Shown: positions 3,131-18,782 of the stretch, piece by piece
Layout: each line of letters opens with the position of its first letter
Position numbering within the stretch: the first letter of the stretch is position 1
Origin: Dyadobacter luteus
Lineage (GTDB): Bacteria > Bacteroidota > Bacteroidia > Cytophagales > Spirosomataceae
Reading direction: 5' to 3'
DNA length: 64,000 nucleotides
NCBI RefSeq assembly: GCF_003383615.1
Contig: NZ_QNUL01000005.1
Span: 248,001-312,000, forward strand
Translations under genes and position numbers: made by a program
Notes under the pieces: generated by a model
The model's database searches: none
Seen by the model: the letters and a program-made list of their open reading frames with translations, nothing else
Told to the model about the DNA's origin: nothing

Positions 3131-3529
3131 TCAGGAAGCGCGGAATCTTAACCGCGGTGCAATCTGGCAAATGTATAGGTTGATCAAATGACCTGCAATC
3201 AGCAAACCTGAACCTACATAGCCTAAGATTGTAAATACCGGATGTGTATTTTCAAATAGCAAGGATACTGCGAAAATCCCCAGCGCTCCCCAGAGTAAAA
3301 CTCTCAGCGGAAGAGATTTATGCTCTTTGGTGGCGAAGTAGACAGCCGCGCCGTTGATTATAATAAAGAAATAGTCGAGAGACAAAAGCCCTGTATGTAC
3401 ATGATGATCATGCGCTATGGTAGTGGTACCAAAAGCTAATGCAGGAACTAACAGGCAATGTATGATGCAAAGTACTGACCCCAATATCCCTATATAATCC
3501 GCTTTCCCGTGTGAGTGTGTTACCTTCAT
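3131..3529 (-). CDS. MerC-domain membrane protein
   Basis: This 132-residue integral membrane protein has about four hydrophobic helices (roughly 13-33, 48-66, 75-92, 98-118). It carries the MerC-family signature C21-I-I-H24-C25 in the first helix. MerC proteins were first described as mercury transporters, but in Bacteroidota small MerC-domain proteins often sit beside Fur/Zur regulators without any mer operon, as here. The His-rich segments HSHG (N-terminus) and HDHHVH (loop) would suit metal binding. Its promoter carries a palindrome shared with the TonB-receptor promoter at 7173-7203, so it is probably a metal-controlled transporter. Zinc is the best guess and is inference. It is divergent from the Fur-family gene. 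Confidence 0.8.
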   Translation of the reverse strand: MKVTHSHGKADYIGILGSVLCIIHCLLVPALAFGTTTIAHDHHVHTGLLSLDYFFIIINGAAVYFATKEHKSLPLRVLLWGALGIFAVSLLFENTHPVFTILGYVGSGLLIAGHLINLYICQIAPRLRFRAS

Positions 3530-3548
3530 ACTAAATACAATGATGTTG

Positions 3549-3590
3549 CAAAAATAACACTGATTTGAATTACTTGCAACAGGGTTGCAG
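3549..3590 (-). promoter_or_regulatory. Promoter with overlapping 17-bp palindrome, upstream of the MerC-like gene
   Basis: Read on the minus strand, a -7 element TATTTTTG (3549-3556) lies exactly 20 bases downstream of a TTG -33 element (3577-3579), matching the Bacteroidota promoter pattern. The -33 element lies inside a 17-bp inverted repeat at 3574-3590, TTGCAAC-AGG-GTTGCAG on the plus strand. A repressor bound there would cover the -33 element. The same promoter and palindrome recur at 7173-7203. A Fur/Zur-type repressor from the neighbouring gene is the natural candidate, by inference. Confidence 0.65.
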
Positions 3591-3661
3591 TGTTTTGTTT
3601 GATTATTTTTATAGAATATAGTGGGATTGTGTTAAAACTGGATTTTTATCATATAAGAACT

Positions 3662-3669
3662 TAACTTTG
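3662..3669 (+). promoter_or_regulatory. Possible -7 element of the Fur-family gene
   Basis: TAACTTTG matches the Bacteroidota -7 consensus TAnnTTTG and lies about 60 bases before the ATG of the Fur-family gene. No convincing TTTG was found at the -33 position, so this is only suggestive. Confidence 0.35.
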
Positions 3670-3727
3670 ACTCTGAGGGTTCTATGATTGTTATGGCCTT
3701 TACGCGCTTACCAAATTGTTAGAAATA

Positions 3728-4141
3728 ATGGATCAATTGAGAGAAACACTGAAAGTGCACCAACTGCGTACTACTACATGCCGCGAGGATGTGCTCTCAA
3801 CTTTTATAAATAAAAAAAATGCACTGTCGCACGGAGATCTTGAAGGAGCACTTGGGGAGAACTACGACAGGGTCACTATATACCGGACATTGAAAACCTT
3901 TTTGGAAAAGGGAATTATCCATAAAGTGCTTGATGATGAAGGATTACGTTATGCGCTTTGTTCGCATAGCTGCTCTGAAGAAAAGCATCAGCATGATCAC
4001 ATTCACTTCAAATGCAATATTTGTGGGAAAACCAACTGTCTGGAAAATCAGCTTATTCCGGAAATTGCGTTACCCCAAGGATATAAGCCTGAAAACTTCA
4101 ATTTGCTGATTCAGGGAACTTGTCCCAGCTGCAATAATTAA
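3728..4141 (+). CDS. Fur-family transcriptional regulator, Zur-like
   Basis: The 137-residue product has the Fur layout: an N-terminal winged helix (about residues 10-75, including the DRVTIYRTLKTF recognition segment) and a C-terminal metal-binding half. The latter has two CxxC pairs (C96/C99 and C132/C135) and a His-rich stretch HQHDHIHF. It lies between a MerC-domain gene and a TonB-receptor/lipoprotein operon. Both of those have a matching palindrome in their promoters, which points to a Zur-type zinc repressor, though Fur or another metal specificity is possible. I chose the ATG at 3728. An in-frame TTG at 3716 would add four residues, but TTG is less likely. A strong hairpin follows the stop codon. 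Confidence 0.85.
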   Translation: MDQLRETLKVHQLRTTTCREDVLSTFINKKNALSHGDLEGALGENYDRVTIYRTLKTFLEKGIIHKVLDDEGLRYALCSHSCSEEKHQHDHIHFKCNICGKTNCLENQLIPEIALPQGYKPENFNLLIQGTCPSCNN

Positions 4142-4183
4142 AAACTAACCCGGACTTGCCATCGCAGGTCCGGGTTAGTTTTT
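4141..4183. terminator. Bidirectional terminator between the Fur-family gene and the lipoprotein gene
   Basis: A perfect 15-bp inverted repeat (AAAACTAACCCGGAC at 4141-4155 with its complement at 4168-4182) has a 12-base loop. It has A/T runs on both sides and overlaps the stop codons of the two convergent genes, so it can terminate both. Confidence 0.85.
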
Positions 4184-4733
4184 ATTGTACTTTCAAAGGG
4201 AAGTCGACATTCACATCATCGCTTCCCGGAGTGGCAGATCCGTTTTTGGTGCCCACCTGATGTCTCAATTGTACTTTTAATGTTCCCGTTCCGGCCGCCC
4301 CTGTAACGGCCTGTCCTTTAATTCCTATGGGCAGGTTGTTTGCATCCTTGTCACTTGCAGTGTATGCCAGAAGAGCCGCTGGTGAAGTGGTATAAACAAA
4401 AAGGTGGTCAACTGCTTCTTCTGCAACTTCTTTGGTAATATCTACAGCCGGGGATTTACTTTCATCCAAAATCTGTGTTTCTACTGAATAAGTAGTTGCC
4501 GGTTTCAGCGTGATGTTATCAATCACGGGCGGATTACCGCCTTCACCGTCAGGATCACTTGATTTGAAAGTTGTAACATTAGTGGTACCCTGCTCTGTAA
4601 ACTTCAGAATTACAGTTGTGATAAGCTCGTTTTCGTCATCGGGAGCTACATCTTCGCCGGAGTCTTTACATTGAGTAAAAAGTGCTGTCATACCGAGCAG
4701 CATAACCCAGGTTAGTTTGCGATTTATTTTCAT
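4182..4733 (-). CDS. Outer-membrane lipoprotein of the TonB-receptor operon
   Basis: This 183-residue protein begins with a lipoprotein signal peptide (hydrophobic core, then LFTQC with Cys22 as the lipidation site). It is followed by an acidic Asp/Glu-rich linker and a beta-rich body with repeated Thr/Val strands. I do not recognise a catalytic motif. It is encoded 36 bases after the TonB-dependent receptor and ends in the terminator shared with the Fur-family gene, so it is the second gene of that operon. A role as a surface or periplasmic partner of the receptor in metal uptake is inferred from position and from the receptor's metal-type promoter. Confidence 0.7.
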   Translation of the reverse strand: MKINRKLTWVMLLGMTALFTQCKDSGEDVAPDDENELITTVILKFTEQGTTNVTTFKSSDPDGEGGNPPVIDNITLKPATTYSVETQILDESKSPAVDITKEVAEEAVDHLFVYTTSPAALLAYTASDKDANNLPIGIKGQAVTGAAGTGTLKVQLRHQVGTKNGSATPGSDDVNVDFPLKVQ

Positions 4734-4769
4734 AGTTAACAGTTATTGTGAACAAAAAGAATTTTAAAA

Positions 4770-7133
4770 CTAGGCACCAAATTTCCATCTCAGGCGCAAT
4801 GAAACCTGGCGTCCCATGTCATCTGCATAATACCTGAACCGGTTGAGGTAATCGCGGTAGGCAACATTGAACAGGTTATTGACCGCCAGACTAACTTCAA
4901 ACTCATTCTTCTCAGATACAGGAATTGTAGTCCCCGCCTGAATATTCCAGAGTGAGTATGCCTTTGGAGGCGGGGCGAAATCGCTGTTCTCGGGCACGCG
5001 TTTCTGTTGTGCGACAAAAAGATTTCCCGCGGAGATATATGTATTCTGGATCTTTGTTCCCGCTCCAATCAGATATTTGAGTTGGTTTTCCAATCTGTTA
5101 GGCGGAATCATAACCAGATAATTCTTATTGCCTTTGTCATATACATTGAGATAACTCAACTTGCCTGTCCAGATCAGTTTGTGTAACACTTCCCAGTCTA
5201 CTGCAAGATCCACACCTCTGAATACTGCATTGGTTTGTGTATATTTAAAGTAAGGAAACGCACCACGAATTGTTAAGATCGGCTCAGGCTGAGGTTGCAG
5301 ATAAATATAATCGGCTATATAATTGTAGTATCCACCTAGTTCAATAGTCAACCGGGAAGAGGTGTATTTGAAACTTGCGATTGTATTTACTGCCTTCTCC
5401 TGCTGTAAAGTTGAATCTCCTTTCTCGTAAGCCGCTGCGCCGTGATGGACGCCGTCACTGAAAAGTTCACTTACGTTCGGAGCACGCCAGGCGGTACCTA
5501 CGTTCAGGGTCATGGATAAGTTCTGAGTCAAATTTCTGGCTGCACCTATTGTTCCTGAAAAATTAGAAAAAGTAAAATCAGTAGATACTTTTTCTCTGCG
5601 TACAATACGATGAGTGGACAAAGTCCTGTAATCAAAACGAGCTCCCGCTTCAAGTTCCCATCCGTGTGTAACCAGCCTTTCTATCCAGAATAAGCCTACA
5701 GTGAACTGGTTAAAATTGGGAATCAACGGACGTCCGTTCATCAGATTGTACTGGTAAAGAGAGCTGAGACCGATTTGTCCGCTTATTTTTTTACCAATCG
5801 GTTTATGATCCCATACAATATCGTTGGTCAATGTATTGAGCTTAAAGCTAAGTTCAGGCCGGTTCAGGGCAGCTATGGAATCATTACGGGGCCTGTGCAA
5901 ATCGAACTCATTCCGGTCATTGAGCTGCTGGGCAATGGTCCATTGCAATTTATTACCGTCCTTAAAATGATAATGTGTTTCGGCTTTGATCAGGTTATGT
6001 AATACGTTCTGATTCGGTCGCTCAATCGCATAACTAAATCCTGACTTAACTAATGGTTCGCCGTTTTTGATCACATTCAATAAGTCGGTAAGGCTGCCGA
6101 TATGGGCTCCTGAGAATATCCCTATTTTGGTATCAAACCGGCTATAAAACAGATCAATACCGAAACCTTTGTTGCGGTACCCGGCAGCAAGAGAAAAGTT
6201 ATTTTCGCTCGAACCAGTATTGTCAAGGAAGTAATTTGGAGTTCGGATGTTTCCGCCTCTTTTCAATGTTCCCTGTGCACGCCAGCCAAAACCTTTGAGA
6301 TTACGAATACCTCCTTGTAGTGTGGAAGAAATAACTCCCTGCCTGCCATTCATAAAGCCTGCCATATTGACTTCGCCTGACAAGGGTTTATTGATCGGTA
6401 ATTCTTCAGGTTCAACCAGAATAACACCGCCAATAGCATCCGATCCATAACGAACCCCGGCGGCACCTTTCACCACGGAAAGACGGGTGGCAACAAACGG
6501 ATCAATTTCCGGGGCATGTTCAGATCCCCATTGCTGGCCTTCCTGCCGTATACCATTGTTCATGATCAGTACGCGGTTGCTATGCATACCATGGATGACA
6601 GGCTTGGAAATGGAAGCACCTGTTTGTAATGAAGTTACACCTGTCAATCCTTTCAGGCTTTCCGCAAGATTATCTCCACGCGTTTTGAAAAGTTCTGTAC
6701 CTGATAAAGTGGTTAATGGCTGAGATGCAGGTGCATCCGTTCTGTGTGCGGTAATTTCTACATCCTTTAAATGAATTTCACTTTCCTCCAATGTAAAATC
6801 TTCTTCATGTCCGGAAGTAAGGTCTATTTTTTCACGAAAAGGATTATATCCAACGATTCGGCATTCTATCTCATAACTGCCGGGACAAATGTGATCCAGC
6901 ATATATCTTCCCTGTTCATCGGTGAAAACTGCTTTATTCTGTCCGACCATTAAAACGGTAGCCCCGATCACCGGCAGACCTGTATGCTGATCCCGCACTA
7001 CTCCTTTTATAAAACATGCACAGGCTGGTGTTTGAGCAAGAGAGTAAGTAGATGTCAATAAGAGAAGAAAAACTCCTGAAAATATGCTGATTATTGATTT
7101 TCTCACAATTGACAATTTGCTCATCGGTATCAT
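4770..7133 (-). CDS. TonB-dependent receptor with carboxypeptidase-like N-domain (possible metal receptor)
   Basis: The 787-residue receptor has a signal peptide (to about residue 33), a carboxypeptidase-regulatory-like beta-sandwich (about 40-125), a plug domain (about 135-245, with SNRVLIMNNGIRQ and GSEHAPEIDPF) and a 22-strand-type barrel to the C-terminus, which ends in aromatic-rich RLRWKFGA. The plug wording around SEHAPEIDPF resembles zinc receptors of the ZnuD type. That, together with a Zur-like regulator and MerC protein next door, makes zinc or another metal the likely substrate (inference; haem or siderophore are alternatives). Another in-frame ATG three codons downstream is possible as the start. 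The promoter contains the palindrome shared with the MerC promoter. The lipoprotein gene follows in the same operon. Confidence 0.88.
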   Translation of the reverse strand: MIPMSKLSIVRKSIISIFSGVFLLLLTSTYSLAQTPACACFIKGVVRDQHTGLPVIGATVLMVGQNKAVFTDEQGRYMLDHICPGSYEIECRIVGYNPFREKIDLTSGHEEDFTLEESEIHLKDVEITAHRTDAPASQPLTTLSGTELFKTRGDNLAESLKGLTGVTSLQTGASISKPVIHGMHSNRVLIMNNGIRQEGQQWGSEHAPEIDPFVATRLSVVKGAAGVRYGSDAIGGVILVEPEELPINKPLSGEVNMAGFMNGRQGVISSTLQGGIRNLKGFGWRAQGTLKRGGNIRTPNYFLDNTGSSENNFSLAAGYRNKGFGIDLFYSRFDTKIGIFSGAHIGSLTDLLNVIKNGEPLVKSGFSYAIERPNQNVLHNLIKAETHYHFKDGNKLQWTIAQQLNDRNEFDLHRPRNDSIAALNRPELSFKLNTLTNDIVWDHKPIGKKISGQIGLSSLYQYNLMNGRPLIPNFNQFTVGLFWIERLVTHGWELEAGARFDYRTLSTHRIVRREKVSTDFTFSNFSGTIGAARNLTQNLSMTLNVGTAWRAPNVSELFSDGVHHGAAAYEKGDSTLQQEKAVNTIASFKYTSSRLTIELGGYYNYIADYIYLQPQPEPILTIRGAFPYFKYTQTNAVFRGVDLAVDWEVLHKLIWTGKLSYLNVYDKGNKNYLVMIPPNRLENQLKYLIGAGTKIQNTYISAGNLFVAQQKRVPENSDFAPPPKAYSLWNIQAGTTIPVSEKNEFEVSLAVNNLFNVAYRDYLNRFRYYADDMGRQVSLRLRWKFGA

Positions 7134-7172
7134 TTATACTAAGTGCAGTATACTTTATATGTTACACTGTTG

Positions 7173-7203
7173 CAAAAATAAGGTATATGCAACTGTGTTG
7201 CAA
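7173..7203 (-). promoter_or_regulatory. Promoter with overlapping 17-bp palindrome, upstream of the TonB receptor
   Basis: On the minus strand, TTG (7201-7203) is followed after exactly 20 bases by TATTTTTG (7173-7180), the same -33/-7 arrangement as the MerC promoter. A palindrome ATGCAAC-TGT-GTTGCAA at 7187-7203 covers the -33 element and part of the spacer. Its centre lies 15 bases from the -7 element, against 26 in the MerC promoter, a shift of about one helical turn. Confidence 0.65.
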
Positions 7204-18278: not shown

Positions 18279-18782
18279 ATGCCACAAGCAAGCAAACCGA
18301 ATTTTGAAGCCGCAAAGAAAATCCTGACGGCTTATCTGGAAAATAAAGGTCTTCGTAAAACGCCTGAGCGCTTTGCGATACTGGAAGAGATATATACGAG
18401 AGAAGATCATTTTGATGTAGATGAGCTTTACATCAGTATGAAAAATAAACGCTACAGGGTAAGCCGTGCTACGGTTTATAATACTCTTGATGTACTCGTA
18501 GACTGTGATCTTGTCACTAAACATCAGTTTGGCAAGAACCTTGCGCAGTTCGAAAAATCTTATGGAAACAAGCAACATGATCACCTGATCTGTACAGATT
18601 GTCATAAGGTGATGGAGTTTTGCGATCCTCGCATTCAATCCATTCAGAATATGGTGGGCGAGATGTTGAATTTCAGTGTAATGCACCATTCGCTGATTTT
18701 TTACGGAAGTTGCACGAAAGAGAACTGCCAGAACAGAAGTGAGGCTCCGCAGGAGGCTGCTGTTGTACACGAAAGAGATTAA
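18279..18782 (+). CDS. Fur-family transcriptional regulator
   Basis: The 167-residue protein has an N-terminal winged helix (about 15-95, with the YRVSRATVYNTLDVLVD recognition segment) and a C-terminal metal-binding half. The latter includes HDHLICTDCHKVMEF and a second Cys pair in GSCTKENCQN. It differs from the Zur-like protein at 3728-4141 by length and by a Glu/Ala-rich tail. Iron (Fur) or peroxide (PerR) sensing are both possible. It lies 81 bases upstream of purA on the same strand and 135 bases after the Rel/Spo gene, so it could share transcripts with purA. Confidence 0.88.
   Translation: MPQASKPNFEAAKKILTAYLENKGLRKTPERFAILEEIYTREDHFDVDELYISMKNKRYRVSRATVYNTLDVLVDCDLVTKHQFGKNLAQFEKSYGNKQHDHLICTDCHKVMEFCDPRIQSIQNMVGEMLNFSVMHHSLIFYGSCTKENCQNRSEAPQEAAVVHERD

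Follow-up and report, generated by a model that had tools for sequence, protein, structure and literature searches.

A probable paired palindromic operator beside a predicted Zur-type regulator gene in Dyadobacter luteus and its relatives

The subject of this analysis is a 64,000-nucleotide stretch of the Dyadobacter luteus genome (Bacteroidota, Spirosomataceae; contig NZ_QNUL01000005.1, positions 248,001 to 312,000), hereafter the window. Within it, a gene encoding a Fur-family protein (3728-4141) sits between two minus-strand promoters, that of merC (3131-3529) and that of an operon for a TonB-dependent receptor and a lipoprotein (7133-4182), each carrying an exact copy of the palindrome TGCAAC-N3-GTTGCA. 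This palindrome is very probably the operator of the Fur-family protein, a predicted zinc-responsive repressor (Zur), as judged by comparison of genomes: its position ahead of genes from metal-handling families and, in distant relatives, ahead of a Fur-family regulator gene makes it likely to be the predicted repressor's binding site. The predicted system is a lineage-specific variant of Zur control with a distinct operator, which at several promoters is paired and built into both the -33 and the -7 elements.

RegPrecise 3.0 covers Zur in over 25 taxonomic groups and also has a Bacteroidaceae collection (PMC3840689). The string ‘Bacteroid’ is absent from the available text of two Zur reviews (PMC6103462, PMC8000910). 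For comparison with our palindrome we recognised no published Bacteroidota Zur box in the open-licence literature, which is not a claim that none is in print. For a large branch of the Bacteroidota, the system described here puts forward a defined operator and a regulator as candidates for controlling zinc; the rarity of the exact 12-base operator allows genomes to be scanned for new zinc genes, and the passage of zinc across the inner membrane in this branch becomes a testable question.

Results

Paired candidate operators at two promoters

At both window promoters the minus strand carries TTG-N20-TATTTTTG, with the exact palindrome lying over the -33 element (operator O1; Table 1). A preliminary description of this DNA had reported these promoters, the inverted repeats at 3574-3590 and 7187-7203, and palindrome centres 26 and 15 bases away from the edge of the -7 element, all of which we find as described. 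It had also called the two palindromes identical, which is true of the 12 arm bases and not of the three-base spacer or the outermost bases, and had assigned one operator to each promoter; an exact palindrome is indeed present at each, but the unit at both is an operator pair. The second copy, O2, which had been missed, reads TATTTTTGCAACATCATTGTA (merC) and TATTTTTGCAACAGTGTAACA (TonB receptor) on the minus strand. A distance of 11 bases separates the two TTG triplets of TTGCAACNNNGTTG, and the O1-O2 spacings of 39 (merC) and 28 bases (TonB receptor) differ by the same amount, so that either arm of the palindrome can serve as the -33 element at an unchanged N20 spacing.

Table 1. Genes, promoter elements and candidate operators in the window, with candidate operator sites elsewhere in the D. 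luteus genome.
Feature	Position	Strand	Description
MerC-family membrane protein, 132 amino acids	3131..3529	minus	PF03203, 72.9 bits, above cut-off 27.6
Operator O2, merC promoter, degenerate	3535..3551		minus-strand reading TTGCAACATCATTGTAT; 2 mismatches; overlaps -7 element; O1-O2 centre distance 39 bases
-7 element, merC promoter	3549..3556	minus	TATTTTTG
Operator O1, merC promoter	3574..3590		TTGCAACAGGGTTGCAG, TTGCAAC AGG GTTGCAG; centre 3582; gene-proximal arm gives -33 TTG
-33 TTG, merC promoter	3577..3579	minus	within O1
Candidate -7 element of regulator gene	3662..3669	plus	TAACTTTG; ~70 bases beyond O1
Fur-family regulator, predicted Zur, 137 amino acids	3728..4141	plus	PF01475, 41.5 bits, above cut-off 23.1
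Lipoprotein-like gene of TonB-receptor operon, 183 amino acids	4182..4733	minus	no Pfam match
TonB-dependent receptor, 787 amino acids	4770..7133	minus	TonB-hemin/hemoglobin and ZnuD models match, each below its cut-off
Operator O2, TonB-receptor promoter, degenerate	7159..7175		minus-strand reading TTGCAACAGTGTAACAT; 2 mismatches; overlaps -7 element; O1-O2 centre distance 28 bases
-7 element, TonB-receptor promoter	7173..7180	minus	TATTTTTG
Operator O1, TonB-receptor promoter	7187..7203		ATGCAACTGTGTTGCAA, ATGCAAC TGT GTTGCAA; centre 7195; distal arm gives -33 TTG
-33 TTG, TonB-receptor promoter	7201..7203	minus	outer end of O1
Exact tandem sites, 40 bases apart	C39		before ZigA-like COG0523 GTPase
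Exact site	C45:354987		between TonB receptor and small DoxX-like gene (DoxX by eye)
Exact site	C59		between MerC-like gene and His-rich gene
1-mismatch tandem sites, 39 bases apart	C6		before two DUF3526 ABC permeases and ATPase
1-mismatch tandem sites, 40 bases apart	C17		before AztD-like lipoprotein

The paired arrangement recurs well beyond the window. All 42 merC promoters, that of the window included, have TAnnTTTG at a spacing of 39, and O2 shows at most two mismatches in 31 of them; at the TonB-receptor promoters TAnnTTTG is present in 40 of 41, at a spacing of 28 in 38 and of 27 in two, and O2 has at most two mismatches in 37 of the 40 that were scored. Throughout the 36 Dyadobacter loci the outer base that completes the -33 TTG of the TonB-receptor promoter is invariant (36/36), and the opposite outer base is not (0.44). 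Pairing in other genomes of the family was assessed in 43 loci, namely the listed family sites that belong neither to the D. luteus genome nor to Dyadobacter loci orthologous to the window; G081 and G090, whose genus had been sampled already, are omitted from this set, and the orthologous locus of G011 (L111) is included. For 35 of the 55 exact sites there, a second site with up to two mismatches lies 12-70 bases away, where simple shuffles predict 0.14. Of the oriented tandem cases (divergent pairs counted both ways), 23 of 49 have their gene-proximal copy fused to TAnnTT, compared with 4 of 44 single sites. Site pairs were also found at spacings of 22-23, 33, 35-36, 44, 52 and 61-62 bases.

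At the window locus no operator copy overlaps TAACTTTG, the candidate -7 element of the regulator gene itself, so repression of the regulator by its own product in Dyadobacter, which we considered, is not supported.

Frequency and conservation of the palindrome

With both strands counted, the window contains 10 matches to the motif at up to two mismatches, against 1.98 expected, and none of 100 shuffles reached 10. The exact palindrome occurs at six places in the 6.95-Mb genome and a reversed-pattern control at none; allowing one mismatch, the counts are 17 and 6. All six exact sites adjoin genes of metal-handling families, and the frequent occurrence at unrelated promoters that the preliminary description had named as counter-evidence was not found.

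Among the regulator loci (80 of 132 related stretches), the exact motif is present 107 times and 66 loci hold at least one copy; eight invented palindromes of matching shape yielded a single occurrence between them. It is exact at both promoters in all 36 Dyadobacter loci, with a spacer that drifts (15 kinds at merC, 5 at the TonB receptor). Across the family, 88 of 101 genomes carry it, with 301 sites against 24 for the control. The operator mostly takes the form TGCAACA-N-TGTTGCA.

Association of the palindrome with the regulator gene

Every one of the 101 family genomes encodes a relative of the regulator (best match at least 52% identical), and the window protein is 82-93% identical to the regulators of the 36 Dyadobacter loci. 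In a phylum-wide set of 247 genomes, D. luteus included, the motif was found in 29 of the 65 genomes with a regulator relative (a match at E <= 1e-15) versus 26 of the 182 without (Fisher p 1.5e-6), amounting to 59 and 27 sites, respectively; the reversed control gave 21 sites in 20 genomes, one of these with a relative.

Outside the family, at least 10 regulator genes among the 84 listed, from nine genomes, have an exact site ahead of the matched start at a distance of 13-94 bases, where about 0.001 would be expected (taking a mean genome of 3.4 Mb, an estimate); in G117, two different regulator paralogues have one site each. Chitinophagaceae loci carry a site between merC and the divergently oriented gene ahead of zur, the two genes in L070 being identified by Pfam as MerC and SCO1, and in G212 a site precedes a zur-merC pair, G122 and G204 appearing similar by eye. 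The proposal in the preliminary description of a small metal regulon, in which the product of the Fur/Zur-type gene acts at the palindrome, is thus supported by comparative evidence from co-occurrence across the phylum and from sites upstream of regulator genes.

Identity of the regulator

The protein encoded at 3728-4141 has the winged-helix and dimerisation fold of its family. A structural zinc motif of four cysteines (CxxC...CxxC; C96, C99, C132 and C135) is invariant in 21 of 21 aligned relatives, as are the candidate sensory-site residues H65, C78, C82, H87, H91, H93 and C104; the metal loop is poorly modelled. In the alignment with Escherichia coli Zur, H65 and C78 correspond to HKV and LC, site ligands of that protein. 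Ranked by profile, Mycobacterium tuberculosis FurB/Zur and E. coli Zur come first among solved relatives, PerR and Fur following closely. The model is nearest to E. coli Zur in its DNA-bound form, by both template-modelling (TM) score and Z, and to holo XcZur, several Fur chains being tied in Z. Scores against the curated Fur models (34.6 and 21.8 bits) lie below the iron Fur cut-offs of 220 and 146. The operator stands upstream of zinc-uptake and zinc-chaperone genes, as assigned by target homology only.

A second full-length Fur-family gene in the window (18279-18782) scores best against iron Fur, with 91.7 bits, below the cut-off of 146. Half-length Fur-like proteins of 90-91 amino acids, comprising the DNA-binding half only, are encoded at L154:2973-3245 (C16) and L155:2984-3259 (C23), where their genes abut or overlap the end of a gene for a protein of ~815 amino acids that appears by eye to be an outer-membrane receptor.

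Predicted regulon

The predicted regulon in the D. luteus genome comprises MerC, the TonB receptor with its lipoprotein, a ZigA-like GTPase, a second TonB receptor, a divergent pair of MerC-like and His-rich genes, an AztD-like lipoprotein and a DUF3526 ATP-binding cassette (ABC) transporter (Table 1). Homologs of the window lipoprotein (4182-4733) begin next to the motif in several family genomes. With 557.7 bits, the C39 GTPase falls below the NCBIfam ZigA cut-off of 600 (another at the motif scores 548.7) and is therefore named ZigA-like only; likewise, the C17 lipoprotein (87.3 bits, within an AztD-like range of 82-100) is named AztD-like only, since the NCBIfam AztD cut-off is 400. This lipoprotein is 63% identical to one adjoining an exact motif in G011, and the first permease of C6 is 66% identical to a G087 permease adjoining the motif. 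The MerC-like protein of C59 scores 24.2 bits, short of the MerC threshold (27.6), and matches MerTP and CopZ weakly.

The C6 operon (L146:4131-7648) consists of two DUF3526/ABC-2 permeases and an ATPase, and a similar permease is seen by eye beside the motif in G051 and G032; to our knowledge, a zinc role for this type of transporter would be new. Seven other one-mismatch sites were considered and set aside: those on C1, C11 and C23 and two on C34 are intragenic, and those on C4 and C12 lack a metal-type neighbour, the control count being six.

In 28 of the 43 loci from other genomes, a MerC, lipoprotein, TonB-receptor, ZigA-like, AztD-like, His-rich or partner, regulator or DUF3526 gene starts within 400 bases of the site (by blastp and by eye); eight have only an oxidoreductase of the flavin adenine dinucleotide (FAD) type, and seven neither (L095, L103, L115, L117, L123, L128 and L132). 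A ZIP transporter gene is at the motif in G280, and in G282 and G290 a GTP cyclohydrolase I gene lies behind a MerC-like gene at the motif.

A thioredoxin-reductase-like FAD protein with the motif HCPYCHGYE recurs beside the operator in L098, L109, L114, L120, L125, L127, L130, L134, L157 and L169 (called by eye, with a further identification for L098 and L120, and by blastp for L157 and L169). In L130 and L134 two exact palindromes precede this gene, 62 bases apart and outside the spacing classes of 28-29 and 36-40. Another Dyadobacter genome has a cluster (L118; G032:C12:43400-52200) with a diverged second Fur-type gene (32% identical) and lipoprotein, His-rich, MerC-like and ZigA-like genes, at whose starts lie four exact palindromes.

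Candidate zinc importers

The D. luteus genome has no match to PF00950 (ZnuB) or PF02535 (ZIP), families matched in 13 and 8, respectively, of 14 control genomes; MerC and the DUF3526 ABC transporter are therefore candidate zinc importers. Within the family, ZnuB is found in one of 101 genomes, and marginally so (21.3 bits, cut-off 20.1), and MerC in 83. The placement of merC under the putative Zur operator and adjoining zur, in genomes lacking a ZnuB permease, suggests that MerC-family proteins may be the missing inner-membrane zinc importers here. Together with the AztD-like lipoprotein and the DUF3526 ABC transporter they would make up a zinc-uptake route independent of ZnuABC and, in D. 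luteus, also of ZIP. We regard this as a tentative proposal and somewhat doubtful: 18 of the 101 genomes have no MerC match, including the six genomes sampled from each of the genera g21 and g32, so MerC cannot be the sole answer for zinc import.

Discussion

The arrangement of the two operators suggests how repression might work. A zinc-bound dimer would occupy the exact palindrome at the -33 element (O1), and another would bind the weaker copy that is joined to the -7 element TAnnTTTGCAAC (O2); with both sites filled, RNA polymerase would be excluded from both core promoter elements. As zinc falls, the sites would be vacated and the zinc-scavenging genes turned on.

Several observations weigh against a paired Zur operator. 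Pairing is not universal: O2 has five or more mismatches in 11 of the 42 merC promoters, no second copy accompanies the C45 site at the second TonB receptor or the C59 site of the D. luteus genome, and none was found near the 25 exact sites of loci L065-L093 (mostly Chitinophagaceae). The exact motif is missing from 14 of the 80 regulator loci (some of them short contigs), from 13 of the 101 family genomes and from 36 of the 65 phylum genomes with a regulator relative, and the 26 phylum genomes with the motif and no detected relative hold 27 sites, close in number to the 20 control sites in those genomes. Against the NCBIfam model for Zur (PRK11639; cut-off 167) the regulator reaches 34.3 bits and is therefore not filed as an E. 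coli-type Zur, several iron-Fur chains come within 1 of the VIA-align Z for Zur (14.0, 13.6), and residues 83-87 of the modelled metal loop have a predicted local distance difference test (pLDDT) score below 50. Some targets, moreover, are not zinc-specific, among them the FAD oxidoreductase, SCO1, which is associated with copper, and a siderophore-type receptor in G011 that scores above its cut-off (289.2 versus 223.5 bits).

The last two targets would suit the same Fur-family protein acting at the palindrome in response to iron, manganese, copper or mercury, with no zinc regulon, as would the naming of MerC after mercury and the failure of curated scores to assign the regulator to Zur. We consider this improbable, given that ZigA-like, AztD-like, ZIP and GTP cyclohydrolase I genes stand at the motif, that the two best profile matches among solved structures are Zur proteins, if narrowly over PerR and Fur, and that a separate iron-Fur-like gene is present in the window. 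If instead a different regulator bound the palindrome and the Fur gene were a chance neighbor, the absence of operator copies over the regulator's own candidate -7 element in the window and the 36 phylum genomes with a relative and no exact motif would be readily explained; the sites 13-94 bases upstream of at least 10 regulator genes in nine genomes and the co-occurrence of motif and regulator over 247 genomes nevertheless render such a coincidence hardly credible, and the 15-base palindrome can be read as 7-1-7, among the Zur box forms given in the available text of PMC6103462.

The positions of the operators relative to the promoter also admit of a different reading. The preliminary description had proposed that the shift lets a repressor occupy the same DNA face at both promoters; on this reading a single repressor would hold one orientation towards polymerase, and the 11-base shift is indeed close to one helical turn. 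The argument is, however, superfluous: the shift equals the TTG-to-TTG distance, so promoter geometry alone, through the choice of the arm that supplies the -33 TTG, predicts it. The invariance of the outer base completing that TTG at the TonB-receptor promoter, and not of its counterpart, points the same way, and the other pair spacings are not in one phase. Helical phasing is consequently unlikely, and as the sole cause of the shift we reject it.

The predicted Zur system shares with E. coli Zur and M. tuberculosis FurB the Fur fold, the structural zinc motif, a 15-base palindrome with a 7-1-7 reading, and zinc-scavenging targets that include TonB receptors and a COG0523 GTPase. According to the available text of PMC6103462, E. 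coli Zur binds as two dimers at znuABC. The Dyadobacter regulator is 24-28% identical to E. coli Zur, scores far below the NCBIfam cut-off for that protein, and differs in its operator sequence, in the separate operators over -33 and -7 at several promoters, and in a genome without a ZnuB match. As in the Caulobacter Zur regulon, TonB-dependent outer-membrane receptors would be under Zur control (PMC6103462, available text), but Caulobacter, from a different phylum, has the ZnuGHI importer, in contrast to the MerC and AztD-like targets in Dyadobacter. The iron-Fur-like protein of the window belongs to the same family as the predicted Zur, but none of the six exact palindromes is at its promoter. 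MerC, finally, is known from mercury resistance, where it is encoded in the mer operons of mercury transposons; Dyadobacter MerC shares the Pfam MerC membrane domain with those proteins, but lies instead under a predicted Zur operator, beside zur.

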